Notes under the pieces: generated by a model
The model's database searches: none
What the model saw: only the letters and a program-made list of their open reading frames with translations
Told to the model about the DNA's origin: nothing
Shown here: positions 5,972 through 17,540 of the stretch, in pieces
How positions within the stretch are numbered: position 1 is the first letter of the stretch
Layout: each line of letters starts with the position of its first letter
DNA from: Acholeplasmatales bacterium
GTDB lineage: Bacteria; Bacillota_I; Bacilli_A; Acholeplasmatales; Acholeplasmataceae
DNA: 56,236 nucleotides
Direction: 5' to 3'
Assembly (NCBI GenBank): GCA_031284605.1
Contig: JAITXV010000130.1
Location: 1 to 56,236 of the forward strand
Translations under genes and position numbers: made by a program

Positions 5972-6010
5972 AAAATATACCTGTTACATTGTGCAATAGG
6001 TGTATTTTTT
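5972..6010. terminator. Hairpin terminator homologous to that at 4401-4440
   Basis: AAATATACCTGTTACATTGTGCAATAGGTGTATTT followed by T run. Confidence 0.8.
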
Positions 6011-7351
6011 ACAATAAACCAACCATATATACTGGTAAATAGATAGTATTTAATTCTTTTTTAAAATCTTTAGTATAAATAATATATGAATCACCAAGCA
6101 ATTTAGAAAACTTGTTTTTAATTGCATCAAGCGATGGATAGTTTTTATAACTTGATGATTTTATCTCAAGAAGTGATAATTTTTTATTATTTTGTATAAT
6201 AAAATCAGTATTGTGGTACTTCTTAGAACCTTTTATAGCATTCCCATAATAGTATACTAAACTATTGTTTGAAGCAACTAGTTGTTGAGCAACTATATTC
6301 TCAAAAAACATTCCTTCATTTATGTGTAGTTTATCTAATAGAATTGATTTAAAAATATCTTTATCAACCAATTCTTTATTCTCTAAAGCGAGTGTAATTA
6401 ACAACCCCGTATCTAAAAAATATATTTTTTTCTTAGAATAGTCAATATTCGACTTTAAATCTAAAGTTGGTAAATTTGTAGCTTTGCTTATATTAATCAT
6501 TTTAGATTGTTCTAACCACTTAAACGCAGTATCAAAATATCTATTTGTGGTATCTGGAGAAACTGCAGAAAATTGAAATTTTTTGTTTATTTTTGATAAT
6601 TGTGCAGGTATTGATTCAAATATTAGCTTTACTTTTTCAATAATTTTTCCATTTGCTTTACTTATATCGTTTCTATATAACTCCAAAATTGACTTTTTTA
6701 TTTGTTCGACTTTTTCATAGTCGTTGGTACATATATATTCTTTTACAACACCCGGCATCCCTCCAATAAGCATATAAAGTCTAAAATCTTTTAAAATAGT
6801 TCGGTGAATGGCTTCGCCTAATGGCATTTTGTTGATAAAATATTGTCTTATATTATTAAAAATAACATCTTTGTTTATTGCCCATAAAAATTCCTCAAAA
6901 TCCATTGGATTTAGAGTTATCTTATATTCTTCAGAAGGAATTAGTATATTTTTTATATTTTTCTTTATAGAAATAAGAGAACCTGTTTCAATAAAATCAT
7001 AACGCCCATCTTTTACAAGTGCTTTTAGGGCTTGTCTAGCTAGAGGAAACAACTGAATTTCATCAAATACTATTAACGTTTCTCTTTCATAGAATGTAAC
7101 ACCAAATACAGTAGACAAAGAAAAAAGAATTCATTTAGGTTACGTAAACCTTTTTTAAACACTTCCTTAAATAAATTAATATCAACAGAAAAATCAATAA
7201 TCAAAAAGCTCTTATATTCATTCCTTCCAAATTCCTTTACAAGCGTGGTTTTTCCAACACGTCTAGCACCTTCAATTAACAATGCAGTCTTGCCTTGTGA
7301 TTCGTTTTTCCATTTTAACAAATTACTATACAATTTTCTTTTAAATGCCAT
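6009..7351 (-). pseudogene. Second AAA+ DUF4143 ATPase, split into ORFs 7073..7351 and 6009..7118 at a T6 run (coding strand)
   Basis: Walker A in ORF92, Walker B onward in ORF369; alignment to the paralogue is collinear after a one-base shift at 7121-7126. Confidence 0.85.
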
Positions 7352-8372: not shown

Positions 8373-9761
8373 ATGAAAATAATAGGAAGAGAAGAAGAAA
8401 TAAATAAGTTAAAATTTTTACACAATTCTAATAAACCTGAATTAGCAGCAGTATATGGAAAGATAGGAGTTGGTAAAACTTTTTTAATTGAAAATTTCTT
8501 TAATAACAAATTCTTTTTTAATTATACTGGTTCAAAAAATATAACTAATAAACAGGAATTAGAAAGATTTTCTAAAGAATTAAACATTTTTATTAAATTA
8601 AACAATTGGGATCAAGCGTTTAATGAATTAAAAAAAATAATACAGGCTTCTAATAATAATAGTAAAAAGGTAATATTTATTGATGAAATATCTTTCTTAG
8701 ATAAACATAAGTCAGGCTTTTTAAATTCGCTTGAATATTTTTGGAATAGCTTTTGTATTTCTAGAAAAGATATACTACTAATAATATGCAGTTCTGCTAC
8801 TAGTTGGATAATTAATAAAGTATTTAATAAAACGTGCGGATTGTATGACAAAATAGCTTCTAGAATATGTATTAATGAATTTAATCTTAGTGAGTGTGAT
8901 GAATATTTAAAAAACATAGATATAAAATATGATATGTATTCTATAACAAAAGCATATATGGTGTTTGGAGGAATACCATATTATTATAGTTTATTTAATA
9001 AAGAAAAATTAGTAGAACAAAACATTGATAATCTTTTATTTAAAGAAGATGCTATATTAAAAAATGAATATTTAAAAATAACATCATCTTTGTTGGATAA
9101 TAAAGATGAGTATTTAAAAGTAATAAGAGCAATAGCTACTAAAAATTCTGGTTTGACTAGAAATGAAATAATTGAAATAATAAAATATAATAGTGGAGGA
9201 ACACTTACTAAAATATTGAGTGATTTAGAATTAAACGGATTCATAAGAAAATATAATAGTGTATCTTTTACTAAAAAAGAATCTGTATATCAAATAATTG
9301 ATAACTTTACTTTGTTTTATTACAACTTTTTAGAAACTAATGTTTTAAAGTCTAGGTCACCTTTTTTACTAGACAATAATGATTCATTTTTAAGCAGTTG
9401 GAAAAATTATGCTTACGAATTAATATGCTTAAAACATGTGCCTCAAATAAAAAAAGCTCTTGGAATAGGCGGAGTAAGTTCTTGTACGTATTCGTTTAAG
9501 AACGAAAATACACAAATAGATTTAATAATCGATAGAGCAGATAATGTTATAAATATTTTTGAAATAAAATTTTCACTATCACAGTATAACATAGATAAAT
9601 CTTACGATATTGAATTAAGAAATAAATTACAAACATTTATTGAAGCTACAAAAACTAGAAAATCTTTGTTTTTAGTATTTATTACTACTTTTGGATTAAA
9701 AAACAGCATATACAATGACCTTGTTACAAAAGAACTAACACTAGAGGATCTATTTGTTTGA
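8373..9761 (+). CDS. AAA ATPase, archaeal-type ATPase/DUF234 family
   Basis: IGREEEINKL, Walker A YGKIGVGKT, IFIDEIS, C-terminal DUF234-like QIDLIID..IFEIKFS. Confidence 0.88.
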   Translation: MKIIGREEEINKLKFLHNSNKPELAAVYGKIGVGKTFLIENFFNNKFFFNYTGSKNITNKQELERFSKELNIFIKLNNWDQAFNELKKIIQASNNNSKKVIFIDEISFLDKHKSGFLNSLEYFWNSFCISRKDILLIICSSATSWIINKVFNKTCGLYDKIASRICINEFNLSECDEYLKNIDIKYDMYSITKAYMVFGGIPYYYSLFNKEKLVEQNIDNLLFKEDAILKNEYLKITSSLLDNKDEYLKVIRAIATKNSGLTRNEIIEIIKYNSGGTLTKILSDLELNGFIRKYNSVSFTKKESVYQIIDNFTLFYYNFLETNVLKSRSPFLLDNNDSFLSSWKNYAYELICLKHVPQIKKALGIGGVSSCTYSFKNENTQIDLIIDRADNVINIFEIKFSLSQYNIDKSYDIELRNKLQTFIEATKTRKSLFLVFITTFGLKNSIYNDLVTKELTLEDLFV

Positions 9762-10700
9762 TGTTTCTTCAGCTTCTGTATTTTCATATAACGCTAGAGC
9801 TTTTTGAAAATTTTCTTTAAATTCTTTACGCGATTTGGATGGTTCTAATATTTCTACATTATATGTAAATCTAGAAAAATAAACAAATGCTTGTTTTCTA
9901 CTGCAATAAAATGTATAAATATCGCCATCTTTGCTTTTTAAGAATGGTCTGTTGATTAACCTCATATAATAATCACTTATGCCTTGTTTTGTGAACCTTA
10001 CTTTTATATCATGAGATGGAAATGTAATAAATTGCGGACCGTTTCTATATATTTCTTTTATAATTTGTTCTTCTTTTTCTTTTATTTCTTTGGTTACTTT
10101 TATACCTTTTTTTGGTACGGATACTTCTAACATATTCATAATTTTGATAGAGTGAGAATCGTTTTTTTGATCGATTCCAACAAAGTAATGAAAGGTACTT
10201 TCCTTAGCAGGAAAAACTCCAACCTTATGAAGTGTAAGAAGTGCTTTCTCAATTGTTAATATACTTAGCGTGTCTGCTCTTTCAATTGCTATAAATTTAT
10301 CCATAAATAATAATTCTTGTCTATTAATATAAAGACTTCTAACATAAGACTCAATTATTAACTTCATTAGTTTGGCTACGTTATAGCCACACCTTAAAGC
10401 AACACTTTCATCGTTAACCTTCAAAGTGTTAGCATATTCAATCATATTTTGTGTATCAACATTGATTCTTCTCTTGCTATAAGAGTTAGCATCTTTTAAA
10501 TCTAAATACGAAAATTCTAATTTAATATTAACTCTATCAGAATATTTTAAGTAATTAGCTACGATAGTATTAATGATTCCATTATACGTAGCTTTCCCAT
10601 CTGCAAAAAATGTATTAATATCCTCTTCTATAGTGCTAGTAGCTAATTCTGTAAGATTTAAATTAATAATATCACTTGTAACTTCAAATTTTTGTGCCAT
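9750..10700 (-). CDS. WYL/WCX-domain-like regulator
   Basis: C-terminal ..KVRFTKQG...DGDIYTFYCSRKQAFVYFSRFTYNVEILEPSKSRKEF.. resembles WCX; divergent from the 11166 operon. Confidence 0.55.
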   Translation of the reverse strand: MAQKFEVTSDIINLNLTELATSTIEEDINTFFADGKATYNGIINTIVANYLKYSDRVNIKLEFSYLDLKDANSYSKRRINVDTQNMIEYANTLKVNDESVALRCGYNVAKLMKLIIESYVRSLYINRQELLFMDKFIAIERADTLSILTIEKALLTLHKVGVFPAKESTFHYFVGIDQKNDSHSIKIMNMLEVSVPKKGIKVTKEIKEKEEQIIKEIYRNGPQFITFPSHDIKVRFTKQGISDYYMRLINRPFLKSKDGDIYTFYCSRKQAFVYFSRFTYNVEILEPSKSRKEFKENFQKALALYENTEAEETSNK

Positions 10701-10823
10701 AACATACCTCCGTGTAACGCTATGTATACATTATACCATATAAAATCATTAATATGTTAAAAAGTGTTAACAAAAAAATTATGCTTTTGCATTCTTCCAT
10801 TTTTGTTACTTTAATGTTATACT

Positions 10824-10852
10824 TTAAGTGGTGCTTGAAAAGCACCACTTAA
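10824..10852. other. Perfect 13-bp inverted repeat with 3-nt loop, TTAAGTGGTGCTT-GAA-AAGCACCACTTAA
   Basis: Direct reading; T-tract 10859-10865 downstream. Confidence 0.95.
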
Positions 10853-10872
10853 TAGTCATTTTTTTAGTATAA

Positions 10873-10992
10873 AAAAGATTTGTATTATGGAATATTGATG
10901 TTGAAGGAAGAGTAATTATCACTAAAGTATTAAAATATGGTTTTGAAATAAAAAATATTTTTATTTATTCCTACATAATTAACAAAAAATAA
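10873..10992 (+). pseudogene. Remnant resembling DUF6922-type small protein
   Basis: Open frame ..FVLWNIDVEGRVIITKVLKYGFEIKNIFIYSYIINKK*; no start codon/RBS. Confidence 0.3.
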
Positions 10993-11086
10993 CCAAAATA
11001 TTTAAGTTTAGTACAAAGTGTATACAAAATAGTAATAAATATGTGTGTTTTGATTAATATTGTTAACAAAAAATAAGTGTTATTGC

Positions 11087-11115
11087 TTGACAATGATTAT
11101 GTACTATGATATACT
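11087..11115 (+). promoter_or_regulatory. Sigma-A type promoter of the 11166 operon
   Basis: TTGACA (11087-11092), 17-nt spacer, TATACT (11110-11115). Confidence 0.8.
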
Positions 11116-11165
11116 ATTGTTAGTTATAAAATAAAAAAGAGTTAAAACAAAAGGAGATTTAAAAA

Positions 11166-11630
11166 ATGGAACAAAAGTATTATAAAGTTAAAGCAAAATG
11201 TGGTCATGTTGGTAATGGTAAATACATTATAGTAGATTTTCCTGTTATTGCACAAAGTGCTAAGGAAGCTGCAGAAATATCTAAAAATATTCCTAGAGTT
11301 AAGCATCATTTAAAAGGTGCCGTTGTTGAAGTTATACAAATCTCTTATCAAGATTTTTATTCGCTTAGAATAAAAAACAATAGTAACTCCTATTTGTTGT
11401 GCCACAACAAAAGAGAACAAAAAGAGATGTGCCCAGACCTAAGTAGTAAAATTATGAAATTAAATCCAGAAGTAGAAAAGAAAGAATTATGTAAAACGTA
11501 TAAAATAAAGAAACAAAAAGAGATATGTGAATATCTTCCTAAACATTTATATGATGAAATATATGAAGAAGAAATAGAAGAACAAGTATATGAAGATATA
11601 GATTATAGTTACAGCTATGATGCTATATAA
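11166..11630 (+). CDS. Small conserved-looking protein with KCGHVGxGKYI..DFPV motif, unknown
   Basis: RBS aaaggag; first gene of operon. Confidence 0.7.
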   Translation: MEQKYYKVKAKCGHVGNGKYIIVDFPVIAQSAKEAAEISKNIPRVKHHLKGAVVEVIQISYQDFYSLRIKNNSNSYLLCHNKREQKEMCPDLSSKIMKLNPEVEKKELCKTYKIKKQKEICEYLPKHLYDEIYEEEIEEQVYEDIDYSYSYDAI

Positions 11631-11647
11631 AAGGAGAAAAGAAAAAT

Positions 11648-12010
11648 ATGGAAATTAGACCAAAATTGATAGAAAGTTTAGAATTATATGTAAAACAACA
11701 ATTAAAAAGAAGTGTTAATGCTGACTTGTTATATAGCATAAAATTATCTAAAAGTACAAAGAGTTTTTATATAAAGATTTTTTATATTAGTAATAATAAT
11801 AAGCGAATATTTAAAACTACTAGAATATCTGATCACAAAGTTATAGTTAGAGAACCTAAGATATGCAAGGTTGTAACAGATAATACTAATTTTAAATCAT
11901 TATGCAAAGCAATAGATAATAATATAAAATCACTAAAATATAGAAAAATGGATATATTGTTAAAAGAAATAAGTATACCAAAAGCAAGTTGTTACAAAGT
12001 GGCTGCTTAA
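11648..12010 (+). CDS. Hypothetical basic protein, 120 aa
   Basis: RBS aaaggag; in operon. Confidence 0.65.
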   Translation: MEIRPKLIESLELYVKQQLKRSVNADLLYSIKLSKSTKSFYIKIFYISNNNKRIFKTTRISDHKVIVREPKICKVVTDNTNFKSLCKAIDNNIKSLKYRKMDILLKEISIPKASCYKVAA

Positions 12011-12034
12011 TTAAATTGAAAAGGAAAATAAAAG

Positions 12035-14122
12035 ATGAATGAAATTGAAAAATTATCAACAAAAATTTTAAAACAAGCACTTGGAAGTAGTGCAGAATTT
12101 AGAGAAGCACAATTAGAAGCTATTGAATCTGTTTTTTCAAAGAAAAAAACTTTAATTGTTAGGAAAACAGGGTGGGGTAAATCTCTAGTTTATTTTATAG
12201 CTACTAAAATAAATAGATACAGAAACAAAGGTGTTACTATAGTAATAACCCCGTTGCTTTCTTTAATGCAAAACCAAATATCACAAGCTAAAAAATATAA
12301 TCTTGAAATAGCGCATATGTGCTATAAAAATAAAATAAATCATGACACTATTATAAAAAGACTAATCAAGAATGAAATAGATGTATTATTTACTACACCC
12401 GAATCATTGTTTAGTGCATTAACTAAACACCTAAAAAATATTACTATAGGTATGTTCGTAATAGATGAGTGTCACTGTATAACTGATTGGGGCCACGATT
12501 TCAGACTTTCTTATACACAAATCAAAAACGTTATTAAGTTTTCAAGTTTACTTTCTTTTCCAATTCTTTGTACTACAGCTACAGCTAACACTAGAATCAT
12601 AGATGATTTAAAAACTCAAATAGGAGAAGATCTTTATATATCAAGAGGCCCGCTGTTTAGAGATAATATTTATATTCAACCTTTAGAAATAAACAAAAGA
12701 GAACAAAGATATGCTTGGATATTAGATTTTTGTACTAAGACTAAAAAACTTGGAATTATATTTTGCTTAACTACTGCAGAATGTGATTCTTTAGCTAAAT
12801 TTTTATCGACAAATAGAATAAACGCAGAAAGTTATCATTCACATAAAGGCTCAGAAGATATTGCTCAGAATATTTTAAACAAATTTATTAATAATAATAT
12901 TCAGGTTTTGGTCTCTACTATTAAGTTAGGCATGGGATTTGATATGCCTAATATATATTTTGTAATCCATTATAATCTACCAAAAAATTTACTAAATTAT
13001 TACCAACAAGTTGGTAGAGCTGCTAGAAATATAGAAAAAGGATATTCAATTATAATAAGAGGTAGTAATGATATTAGCACACTACAGTATTTTGTAAACA
13101 ATAAGTTTCCTAGTGAAGAAAATATGAAAAAAGTATATAACGCCATTGCAGATGAAGAAATTAGAACAATAGAATCTTTATTAAGTCGTAAAAACGAAAA
13201 AAAAGGGGAGGTTGAAAAATGCATAAAGTATTTGTACTATGAAGGTTTTATAACGAGTTCTTCAGAACATCCTCGTACATATTTTAGAAGAGTAGATAGA
13301 ACTTTTAAATATAATAAAGAGCATTATGATGAAATAACAAGATTATCAAATATGGAGTTAGCAGAATTAGACAAAATATATTCAGGTGAATGCATAAATA
13401 AAATAGTTTTGAATTCATTAGATGACTACAGCATTGAAAAATGTGGGGTGTGTTGTAATTGCAACGATAAACCTTATTTTACTGCTAATATTAAACCAGA
13501 ATATTTACTTTTAGCAAATAATTTTTTAAATACTGACTATATGCCACTAGAATGTAAATATGAATGTGACTATATACCAGGATGTGGTAATCAATATTCA
13601 CATTATAATACTACCGAAGGGATTATTCTCTCTAAATATGGAGACGAAGGTATAGGAGGCGAAGTAGCTTCTTGTAAACACAAAAATATTAACTTTCCAG
13701 CTGAAGTATTAGATAAAGCAGTTAATGTATTAAAAATATATTTTAAAAAAAATGATACTAGTGCTGATATAATAACTTGTATACCTTCATTAAACAATAC
13801 TTTGGTTGACAACTTTTGTGAAAGGTTGTCAAATGCATTAGGAATACCTTTTATAAAAACAATCAAAAAAATAAAAGATACACATCAAAAAAGTATGTAT
13901 AATAAATATTACCAAAAACAAAATGTCGTGGATTCTTATCAAACGATTAAAGATGAATCAAAATTATTGTATAATAAAAGGGTACTGTTAGTTGATGATA
14001 TGGTTGACTCAGGTTATACGTTAGCTATATTAGGACTAAGTTTGTTAGAAAATAATAAGGCAGATAAAGTTATACCACTAGCTTTAGCCGATAGTTCTAG
14101 AAAGGACGCAGAAGATGAATAA
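12035..14122 (+). CDS. RecQ-like superfamily 2 helicase fused to C-terminal phosphoribosyltransferase domain
   Basis: RKTGWGKSLVYF (motif I), VIDECHCITDWGHDFR (DECH + RecQ aromatic-rich loop), QQVGRAAR (motif VI), EKCGVCCNC zinc cluster, PRPP loop VLLVDDMVDSGYT. Confidence 0.92.
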   Translation: MNEIEKLSTKILKQALGSSAEFREAQLEAIESVFSKKKTLIVRKTGWGKSLVYFIATKINRYRNKGVTIVITPLLSLMQNQISQAKKYNLEIAHMCYKNKINHDTIIKRLIKNEIDVLFTTPESLFSALTKHLKNITIGMFVIDECHCITDWGHDFRLSYTQIKNVIKFSSLLSFPILCTTATANTRIIDDLKTQIGEDLYISRGPLFRDNIYIQPLEINKREQRYAWILDFCTKTKKLGIIFCLTTAECDSLAKFLSTNRINAESYHSHKGSEDIAQNILNKFINNNIQVLVSTIKLGMGFDMPNIYFVIHYNLPKNLLNYYQQVGRAARNIEKGYSIIIRGSNDISTLQYFVNNKFPSEENMKKVYNAIADEEIRTIESLLSRKNEKKGEVEKCIKYLYYEGFITSSSEHPRTYFRRVDRTFKYNKEHYDEITRLSNMELAELDKIYSGECINKIVLNSLDDYSIEKCGVCCNCNDKPYFTANIKPEYLLLANNFLNTDYMPLECKYECDYIPGCGNQYSHYNTTEGIILSKYGDEGIGGEVASCKHKNINFPAEVLDKAVNVLKIYFKKNDTSADIITCIPSLNNTLVDNFCERLSNALGIPFIKTIKKIKDTHQKSMYNKYYQKQNVVDSYQTIKDESKLLYNKRVLLVDDMVDSGYTLAILGLSLLENNKADKVIPLALADSSRKDAEDE

Positions 14123-15512
14123 ATCGGAAATAACAAAATTATTATGTTCAAATTTATGTGTTGGAAAATACAAACCTTTTACTACATTAGAATTTAATAA
14201 AATACTAATACAATTAGAAAAAACGAATACTCCTCTTGAGTTATTAATAGAAGTAGAGAAAAAAGACCTTCCTTTAGTGTTTTATAACCCTTCTTATATT
14301 TTAAAAGAAAAAGATTTATCCTTTATTGAGAGAATCTGGGGTTTATTACAAAGACAAGGTAGCATTATTTTTGATTATATGGATTTGGAAAAATGGGGTA
14401 TATCTATAGTAACTATATTTGATGAAGACTACCCTAAACAGTTAAAAGAAAAGTTAAAAGATAAAACTCCAGTTTTATTATATTACTGTGGAAAACTCTC
14501 TATTTTAGAAAACAATTTTATTGGTTTTGTAGGTTCAAGAAATATAAATAGTGATGATGAACGTTACACAAAAGAATGGATAAAACAAGTTAAAAATAAT
14601 AATTATGGTGTTGTATCTGGAGGCGCTAGTGGAATAGATAGTGTAGCCTCGTTTGAAGCTATAAAAAATGATTTATATGTGGTTGAATTTTTATGTGGTG
14701 CTATGATAGACAGAATAAAAAATAAATTAATTAATAAATCAATATATGAAGGTAAAACTTTACTGTTATCAGAAACACTTCCATATACTAAATTTGAGCC
14801 CGGTTTCGCTATGGCTAGGAATAAATATATATATTCTATATCTTCTAAAACAATTGTGGTTGTAGCTACCTATAAAAAAAATGAAAAAGGAATTAAAACT
14901 GGTGGAACTTGGAATGGTGCAATTGAAAATCTAAATAGTAAGTTTCCAAACACTTATGTTTGGAATAATCTAAAATACAGTGCTAATACTGAACTAATTA
15001 ATGATTTTGGTGGAATTCCAATTAATGAATCTAAAGACAAAAAATCAATAGATGATATATTCTCTTGTAAAGAGGAACACATATATACAGAAAATAATTT
15101 AGATATTGATTTGTCTAAAATGGATTTGTCTAAAATAGACAAAATTGATTTAGAACAAGCTTTAATGATCGAAGAAAATATAAATAATATAAAAACAGAT
15201 ATAGATTTAAAAAAAATAGACGGAATAAGTCATACTGTAAAAGAATTTATATTATCAAATAATAATAATGAAAAATATTTTCTTTCAAAAGATTTATTAA
15301 ATATAGAAACTAGATACATAATATTAAACAAATTTATTAACTTAGATATTCCTAGCAGTGTTAAAAATATAGGACACATAAATAAAATAGAAGATGCTAA
15401 AATTATAACAAAGAAAACAAATTCGATTTATCCTTTATTAATGCTAAATATCCCTGCAAAACTAAAAAAAGAAATACTTGATTTAGTGCTAACTATTTCA
15501 CTTTTTGACTAA
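14115..15512 (+). CDS. DprA/SMF-family protein
   Basis: NFIGFVGSRN..GVVSGGASGIDSVA..LLLSETLP....F.MARNKYIYSIS Rossmann motifs; 8-nt overlap with upstream gene. Confidence 0.9.
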   Translation: MNKSEITKLLCSNLCVGKYKPFTTLEFNKILIQLEKTNTPLELLIEVEKKDLPLVFYNPSYILKEKDLSFIERIWGLLQRQGSIIFDYMDLEKWGISIVTIFDEDYPKQLKEKLKDKTPVLLYYCGKLSILENNFIGFVGSRNINSDDERYTKEWIKQVKNNNYGVVSGGASGIDSVASFEAIKNDLYVVEFLCGAMIDRIKNKLINKSIYEGKTLLLSETLPYTKFEPGFAMARNKYIYSISSKTIVVVATYKKNEKGIKTGGTWNGAIENLNSKFPNTYVWNNLKYSANTELINDFGGIPINESKDKKSIDDIFSCKEEHIYTENNLDIDLSKMDLSKIDKIDLEQALMIEENINNIKTDIDLKKIDGISHTVKEFILSNNNNEKYFLSKDLLNIETRYIILNKFINLDIPSSVKNIGHINKIEDAKIITKKTNSIYPLLMLNIPAKLKKEILDLVLTISLFD

Positions 15513-15546
15513 ATAAAAAAAACAACTTAAATTAGGAGATAAAAAC

Positions 15547-15786
15547 ATGAAACTAAAAATACTAGATGATTTTGAGTACAGTACTAAACTAGTGTCCTTT
15601 TTGAAAGAAAAGCACACAGAAGAAGAAATTAGCAATTACTTTGATGAAATTAAAGAATATTATTCTTATTTTAAAGGTTCTTCTAGAAGTAAGGCAATAA
15701 TTAAAAATATAGAAGTTGTAAGAAAAACAATATTTAAGATGATAAAATATGCAACTAATGAATTAAAAACAGATAATATTAAATAA
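15547..15786 (+). CDS. Small hypothetical protein (79 aa), last gene of operon
   Basis: RBS taggag; 34 nt after the DprA-like gene. Confidence 0.6.
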   Translation: MKLKILDDFEYSTKLVSFLKEKHTEEEISNYFDEIKEYYSYFKGSSRSKAIIKNIEVVRKTIFKMIKYATNELKTDNIK

Positions 15787-15914
15787 CATTTAAGATCTTA
15801 TAATTATAAGTTCTTTGTTTTATGCACTAGAGAATTTATGTTAATGTATTGTAGAGAAGAAGAAGTAATAATTCATATGTGCAATTTTTCAACACCACAC
15901 TCCTTAAGACTGGA

Positions 15915-15972
15915 TATTGTGTAATATTTGCACAATACGGGCGGAAAGTGGATAAAAAATGTGAATTCCGCC
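15915..15972 (+). other. Two consecutive short hairpins (TATTGTG/CACAATA and GGCGGAA/TTCCGCC)
   Basis: 15915-15921 with 15931-15937; 15940-15946 with 15966-15972. Confidence 0.7.
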
Positions 15973-15973
15973 T

Positions 15974-16138
15974 ATGTATTTAAAAATAAACAGAAAAATC
16001 AATTTGTTAAGAGAAAAAATAAATAAAAAATGTTCTATTAATCTAACTAATATTACTACATTTGAAGTATTAAATAAATATTGCTACAGTACTATAAGTT
16101 CTTTTGTTGAATTAGACGATTTATTTGTTAAATTATAA
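15974..16138 (+). CDS. Short ORF (54 aa), possible Spo0E-like protein
   Basis: MYLKINRKINLLREKINKKCS..EVLNKYCYSTISSFVELDDLFVKL has the Spo0E-like I..LR..i.......L...S...D.L pattern; weak RBS. Confidence 0.35.
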   Translation: MYLKINRKINLLREKINKKCSINLTNITTFEVLNKYCYSTISSFVELDDLFVKL

Positions 16139-16139
16139 A

Positions 16140-17540
16140 TTAAAATTCAGCGTTTTTAGGAGTTCTAGGGAAAGGTAAAACATCTCTTATATTTTCAACA
16201 CCAGTTAAATACATAATTAATCTTTCAAAACCCATACCAAAACCACTATGTACACAACCACCATATTTTCTCAAATCTAAATACCATTCAAGACCTTTTT
16301 CACTCATATTAAGTTCTTTCATTCTAACAACTAATTTATCGTAGTCTTCTTCTCTTTGAGAACCACCACATAATTCACCACTTCCAGGAACTAATAAATC
16401 AACAGCAGCAACTGTACGATTATCTTTATTTAATTTCATATAAAACGCTTTTATCTCTTTAGGCCAATTAGTAACAAAAACAGGACCATTAAAATGCTTT
16501 TCTGTTAAAAACTTTTCATGTTCTTTTCCAATATCTTCACCATAAGCGGGAACATTTTCAAACTTAACTCCATTTTTTGAAGCTTCATGAATTAACTTAA
16601 TTGCATTATAATGAGTAATTCTAGCAAATGGTTTTTTAAGAATTGCTTCTAATTTTGTAATTAATCCTGGACTTACAAACTTATCAAAAAACTCTAATTC
16701 AGGTCTTAGTTCCTTTAATGAATACTTAACTAAATATTTAAGCATATTTTCCATAATTTTCATATCGCCTTTTAGATCACAAAATGCCATTTCAGGTTCT
16801 ATCATCCAAAATTCAGAAGCATGTGTTAGCGTATTAGAGTTTTCTGCTCTAAATGTAGGACCAAACGTATAAACATTACTAAAAGCTAGAGCGTAGCTTT
16901 CTGCTTCTAATTGACCAGTTACAGCCAAATTTGTTCTTTTTCCAAAGAAATCTTTTGAATAATCTACCTCTTTAGAATCATTATATGGGATTTTGTCTAA
17001 ATCAAATGTCGTAACATTAAACATTTGACCAGCTCCTTCCCCATCATTACTAGTGATTATAGGAGTATGCACATAAACGAAATTTTGTTCTTGAAAAAAT
17101 TTATGTATTGCATAAGCAACTTTACTTCTAACTCTAAAAACAGCGTTAAAAAGATTAGTTCTAACTCTTAAATGAGCAACTTCTCTTAAAAATTCTCTTG
17201 TGTGCCTTTTTGGTTGAATTGGATAGTTTTCAGGAGAATCACCAGCTATTGCTACATTTGTTGCTCTTAATTCATATTTTTGAGCATTCAAAGGAGTTAC
17301 TACTACATTGCCTTCTACTACAACTGCAGCACCAACTCTAATATGGCGTAAAGTTTCAAAATCTGAGTCTTCTTCTGCATATACTACTTGAACATTATCT
17401 AAAGTAGAACCATCATTGATAGTCAAAAATCCAAAAGATTTTTGATCTCTATTTGTTCTAACCCAACCAGATAATACAACTTGTTTATTTTCTAGTTTAA
17501 CGTATTTTGTTTGTAATTCTTTATTAGTTATTTTCATCAT
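16140..17540 (-). CDS. asnS: Asparaginyl-tRNA synthetase
   Basis: OB-fold + class II motifs (FRAENSNTLTHASEFWMIEPE, GFGMGFERL). Confidence 0.97.
   Translation of the reverse strand: MMKITNKELQTKYVKLENKQVVLSGWVRTNRDQKSFGFLTINDGSTLDNVQVVYAEEDSDFETLRHIRVGAAVVVEGNVVVTPLNAQKYELRATNVAIAGDSPENYPIQPKRHTREFLREVAHLRVRTNLFNAVFRVRSKVAYAIHKFFQEQNFVYVHTPIITSNDGEGAGQMFNVTTFDLDKIPYNDSKEVDYSKDFFGKRTNLAVTGQLEAESYALAFSNVYTFGPTFRAENSNTLTHASEFWMIEPEMAFCDLKGDMKIMENMLKYLVKYSLKELRPELEFFDKFVSPGLITKLEAILKKPFARITHYNAIKLIHEASKNGVKFENVPAYGEDIGKEHEKFLTEKHFNGPVFVTNWPKEIKAFYMKLNKDNRTVAAVDLLVPGSGELCGGSQREEDYDKLVVRMKELNMSEKGLEWYLDLRKYGGCVHSGFGMGFERLIMYLTGVENIRDVLPFPRTPKNAEF

Follow-up and report, generated by a model that had tools for sequence, protein, structure and literature searches.

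The operon at positions 11166-15786 of the window (the whole 56,236-nt stretch of Acholeplasmatales DNA analyzed here) contains a pair of overlapping genes, at 12035-15512, that we read with a probability of about 80% as a PsyrTA toxin-antitoxin module, divergent in sequence and obtained by horizontal transfer, and retained, most likely, for defense of the abortive-infection type. The grounds visible in the DNA are the architecture of the pair, its intact motifs, the pairing with DprA-like genes in distant homologs, the accessory distribution of the module, and the homologs embedded in defense loci. PsyrTA with a complete antitoxin partner would now extend to an uncultured, small-genome gut lineage whose relatives are without DprA, and the pair would offer a clear example in which a DprA-like protein works with a toxin and not in competence. 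The PsyrTA core is already described, and the uncharacterized part of the operon is only the small genes that adjoin it; what should be new to specialists is the unannotated family of small leader genes found heading unrelated phage and defense operons.

Operon organization

The operon consists of five closely spaced, co-directional ORFs on the plus strand, with intervals of 17, 24, −8, and 34 nt and with purine-rich ribosome-binding sites. These ORFs and the neighboring features are as follows.

8373-9761, plus strand: candidate defense protein PDC-S27, ATPase_2-type (full-length PADLOC match, 1e-159), adjoining the operon
9750-10700, minus strand: WYL-like protein, a possible regulator that is transcribed away from the operon (PADLOC WYL model, weak match at E = 3.9e-8, residues 172-302)
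11087-11115, plus strand: sigma-70-type promoter, TTGACA-17-TATACT with extended −10 (TG), by consensus match
11166-11630, plus strand: 154-aa leader gene of an uncharacterized "KCGHVG...PRVKH" family found heading diverse operons
11648-12010, plus strand: 120-aa small protein with a RISDH motif, from a thin family
12035-14122, plus strand: PsyrT/RqlH, 695 aa, putative toxin (RecQ-like helicase, zinc cluster, and C-terminal phosphoribosyltransferase [PRTase])
14115-15512, plus strand: PsyrA/RqlI, 465 aa, DprA-like partner and putative antitoxin (PADLOC PDLC03927, E = 1.4e-68)
15547-15786, plus strand: 79-aa orphan protein

The promoter is the top consensus match in the scanned region (9700-16200), with 11 of 12 positions plus the TG, against at most 10 for all other sites; weaker promoter-like sites occurred there at chance frequency (47 found versus 49 expected). 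A preliminary description, made from the letters of the DNA, had seen five packed co-directional genes behind a single strong promoter, flanked by accessory ATPases and housekeeping genes. The ORFs, their spacing, and the near-perfect promoter agree with the first of these points, and the Pfam domain content of the flanks, including asnS, agrees with the second; with asnS and gyrB present, the window appears chromosomal. On the minus strand at 6009-7351, an apparent frameshift near 7073-7118 splits an AAA_14/DUF4143 ATPase and puts its N-terminal portion, with the Walker A motif, in a different reading frame; the split could reflect either a pseudogene or a mistake in the assembly.

Identity of the helicase-phosphoribosyltransferase and its DprA-like partner

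The 695-aa protein is matched over residues 5-691 by the PADLOC PsyrT model PDLC03928 (model positions 5-688 of 689; E = 2e-193, 642 bits). Pfam places DEAD, Helicase_C, and Pribosyltran domains in it (PF00156, 29.8 bits against a cut-off of 26.3), and the RecQ model TIGR00614 exceeds its cut-off of 219.8 at 242.6 bits. The helicase motifs (K49 in GWGKS, DECH at 144-147, and QVGRAAR) are accompanied by zinc cysteines C453/C470/C473/C476 and by a PRPP loop, VDDMVDSG (D654, D655), that aligns with the loops of homologs. In an alignment with five homologs at 29 to 36% identity, K49 of Walker A is invariant, as are the residues of the DE.H box, all four zinc cysteines, and the aspartates of the PRPP loop. 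Pfam and this alignment thus uphold the complete RecQ motifs, zinc cluster, and C-terminal PRPP-binding loop of the preliminary description, and the searches that it had proposed (Pribosyltran, DNA_processg_A, and RecQ) recovered all three families.

Two other assignments of this protein were set aside. It is not the chromosomal RecQ, since the genome encodes another RecQ that exceeds the cut-off elsewhere, on contig C116, and the PsyrT model matches end to end. The RecQ-like DpdF helicases of the Dpd system resemble its helicase half (1e-70), but the best DpdF models cover that half alone (about residues 5-370) and score far under PsyrT over the whole protein; PsyrT fits best here, though DpdF outscores PsyrT for two matches elsewhere in the phylum (L077 and L078).

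The PsyrA ORF lies immediately downstream and overlaps the PsyrT ORF by 8 nt. That this overlapping gene is DprA-like, as first described, is confirmed by its coordinates, by Pfam (DNA_processg_A, 120 bits), and by PADLOC, whose PsyrA model scores 230 bits while covering only about 350 model residues. The housekeeping dprA model TIGR00732 reaches 89.4 bits against a cut-off of 191.15, below its equivalog threshold. In the homolog alignment, the DprA GSR (residues 140-142) and SGGA..G.D motifs are kept. The C-terminal part carries no domain assignment: the last third of the protein aligns poorly and gave no match to a helix-turn-helix (HTH) family by Pfam or alignment; the DprA-like protein RqlI has a C-terminal HTH, which is dispensable there.

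Because the PsyrT and PsyrA models far outscore those for ShosT and ShosA, and because the housekeeping DprA model falls far below its cut-off, the pair was identified as PsyrTA/RqlHI, a system already named and with PADLOC models of its own; judged by sequence, this identification is almost certainly correct. The pair is a divergent copy of that system. In common with it, the pair has a RecQ-PRTase fusion, a DprA-like gene that overlaps or adjoins the fusion gene on its downstream side, the same catalytic motifs, and full-length model matches; it differs in its low identity (about 29 to 36%), the divergent C terminus of PsyrA, the additional small genes in the operon, and a lineage whose relatives are without any DprA-like gene. 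The preliminary description was therefore right in kind in proposing a helicase-armed pairing of PRTase and DprA of a toxin-antitoxin or defense type, but the pair is the named PsyrTA/RqlHI and not an unrecognized relative of ShosTA. ShosTA likewise combines a PRTase toxin with a DprA-like antitoxin (for ShosA there is a PDB entry, 9vzo), and its models match the window pair more weakly (ShosT, 6e-8; ShosA, 6e-22). ShosT, however, has no helicase, whereas the PRTase here is fused to RecQ, and the ShosT model spans only residues 562-690.

Distribution and genomic context

The module is accessory in this genome. The 465-aa protein is the sole DprA of its genome (88% complete), and the preliminary description had allowed that an only dprA might mean simply core competence or repair; this alternative fails, as a DprA domain was found in none of the 87 other genomes of the bacterial family, and the candidate of a core competence dprA was dropped for the same reason. 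Full-length PsyrT is likewise absent from those 87 genomes, and across 396 genomes of the phylum the window's own is the only full-length match. Five further phylum matches at E ≤ 1e-100 span the helicase half only, and the two that were checked are DpdF-like. A genome-wide contig scan gave one relative (L022), truncated where its contig ends right after the PRPP loop. Scans of viral contigs gave no matches, whether the query was PsyrT, PsyrA, or the leader (as a single protein or as an alignment), and phage records gave matches to the helicase half only. The lack of DprA and of full-length PsyrT in the family, the lack of other full-length copies across the phylum, and the separate RecQ together mark the module as accessory, from which horizontal acquisition is the natural inference.

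The PsyrT-DprA pair recurs in Proteobacteria and cyanobacteria. At the search sensitivity used, a PsyrA-like gene was found on four plasmids, all among the top PsyrT-matching plasmids, and in 4/4 it lies directly downstream of the PsyrT match. In a type I restriction-modification (RM) operon, hsdS and hsdR flank the E. coli plasmid copy, and the one E. coli chromosomal copy inspected has the same position; for the Acinetobacter plasmid copy, the flanking genes are BREX pglX and pglZ. The Nostoc plasmid copy adjoins parA/parB, and the surroundings of the Sinorhizobium plasmid copy include an HNH endonuclease, IS elements, and an integrase. Among 5426 genomes, the E. coli allele is sporadic, with 53 carriers at ≥99% identity, and it is nearly always chromosomal. 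A defense role is supported by the homologs that sit within type I RM and BREX loci.

In E. coli AVS0935 (NZ_CP124405.1), the PsyrT-PsyrA match is interrupted by an IS3-like element and a ComF family protein is annotated separately; the interruption, similar to one described in Shigella sonnei 53G, is a possible route to a detoxified PsyrT.

Proposed mechanism and alternative explanations

The PsyrTA/RqlHI system is known from Sberro (2013) and from Russell and Mulvey (2015), and Millman et al. (2022) reportedly tested PsyrTA as a defense system. In E. coli F11, rqlH and rqlI form one operon, RqlH is genotoxic via its PRTase domain, and RqlI physically binds RqlH and blocks its toxicity (Russell and Mulvey; PMC4670107). 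Gram-positive bacteria commonly carry RqlH without RqlI (PMC4670107), and toxicity is therefore not universal. Phage defense by ShosTA and by DprA-PRTase was linked to this system by Rousset et al. (PMC9122126). Speaking against defense, phage protection could not be detected in the native host E. coli NILS69 when PsyrTA was deleted or overexpressed, and overexpression gave only a growth defect (PMC12409345).

By analogy with these homologs, the window pair probably behaves as a toxin and antitoxin, and we lean toward an anti-phage role in its host. The RecQ motor would put PsyrT on DNA, where the C-terminal PRPP-binding domain, acting on a presumed PRTase substrate, would be the genotoxic effector. 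The DprA-like PsyrA, predicted to be translationally coupled, would bind PsyrT and restrain it. Binding of unusual single-stranded or invading DNA by the DprA fold, or loss of PsyrA, would then free the toxicity, and the released PsyrT would cause DNA stress and growth arrest.

Helicase, PRTase, and DprA are also the three activities of the separate proteins ComFA, ComFC, and DprA in natural competence, a domain parallel drawn by Russell and Mulvey and by a survey of polyvalent proteins (PMC5512222), and the pair might accordingly be a non-toxin module for DNA uptake or repair that works on single-stranded DNA, either incoming or damaged. That PsyrA is the sole DprA of the genome fits such a role. 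We nevertheless consider it improbable: the 87 DprA-free genomes imply no competence pathway in a family otherwise without DprA, PsyrA is not the housekeeping DprA (230 bits for the PsyrA model versus 89 for dprA), and homologs are located in RM and BREX loci. Those same insertions, together with the defense-like neighborhood, favor defense over a selfish addiction module kept by post-segregational killing. Addiction would be compatible with the toxin-antitoxin behavior of the homolog, with the plasmid copies, one of them beside parA/parB, and with the lack of protection in NILS69, but the window looks chromosomal, and we regard this explanation as unlikely, if less so than uptake or repair.

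The promoter and the close spacing of the genes would also suit a five-gene variant of PsyrTA that depends on the small proteins as sensors or inhibitors, as would a relative of the 120-aa protein near giant RecQ-like and WYL-like genes in another genome of the family. However, relatives of the leader, 120-aa, and 79-aa proteins were found at none of five other PsyrT loci (E. coli, Nostoc, Acinetobacter, Halanaeroarchaeum, and Defluviitaleaceae, the last on a contig that ends directly after PsyrT), and the leader family heads unrelated operons, so that we give a five-gene variant little credence. The pair thus recurs without the small genes; conservation of all five genes together, on which the preliminary description had staked its operon, was not found, and its idea that the two leading proteins are sensors or inhibitors of the pair gained no support. 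Going by the sequences compared, the three small genes do not belong to the conserved part of PsyrTA; they have the promoter in common with the toxin-antitoxin pair but were probably added locally.

The small genes and the WYL-like neighbor

Homologs of the leader occur in 8 of 88 genomes of the family and 20 of 348 of the phylum, counts that include the window's own genome. The core of the family matched no Pfam, NCBIfam, or PADLOC family, and its profile matched no PDB chain; a Dcc1 Pfam match of the leader was discarded as below cut-off and restricted to the C-terminal half, and an AlphaFold model from the single sequence was uninformative (pLDDT 37). Six relatives carry fused LRR_5 repeats. 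Of 14 loci with stand-alone copies, 10 have the copy as the first gene of a tight operon, compared with 16 of 168 background ORFs (p = 4e-7, which is overstated because ORF calling used a simple script and several of the loci are related to one another); with five ribonucleotide reductase (RNR) loci merged into one, the count is 7 of 10.

In the domain-checked member of those five (L060), a leader relative precedes an anaerobic RNR and thymidylate kinase, with nrdG, nrdD, and a phosphoesterase in the cassette. The other four (L054, L055, L057, and L058) have the same gene layout, L054 with a methyltransferase-like 818-aa protein as well, and the gut phage NatCom_17901 (L084) has leader-nrdG-nrdD-tmk. 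The domains of L060, the layout of the others, and the phage match led us to re-read as RNR/thymidylate kinase cassettes five loci taken for type III methyltransferase-like, and the cassettes in several Bacilli-type relatives may be prophage derived. Large Mokosh-like (MkoA) helicase operons (L052, L069, and L070) are likewise preceded by stand-alone members of the leader family, and leader relatives precede a type I RM system (L062) and an OLD-like ATPase (L059). Given these varied downstream operons, the leader is specific neither to PsyrTA nor to defense. A more speculative and rather doubtful idea is that the leader is a portable control protein common to phage or prophage RNR cassettes and defense operons (Mokosh-like, type I RM, and PsyrTA), which would here control or trigger PsyrTA, possibly with the divergent WYL-like protein.

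The 79-aa protein has no homolog among 150 other genomes of the order. For the 120-aa protein, 161 genomes of the order gave one convincing relative (121 aa, 32% identity, in G021) and one further weak match; the relative lies between a RecQ-like gene of 1591 aa on its upstream side and a WYL-like gene on its downstream side. At one of the RNR loci (L057), a relative of the window's WYL-like protein is divergent from the leader homolog. Between the WYL-like gene and the operon, at 10824-10852, there is a 13-pair inverted repeat with a T-rich tail, which is terminator-like or may be an operator.
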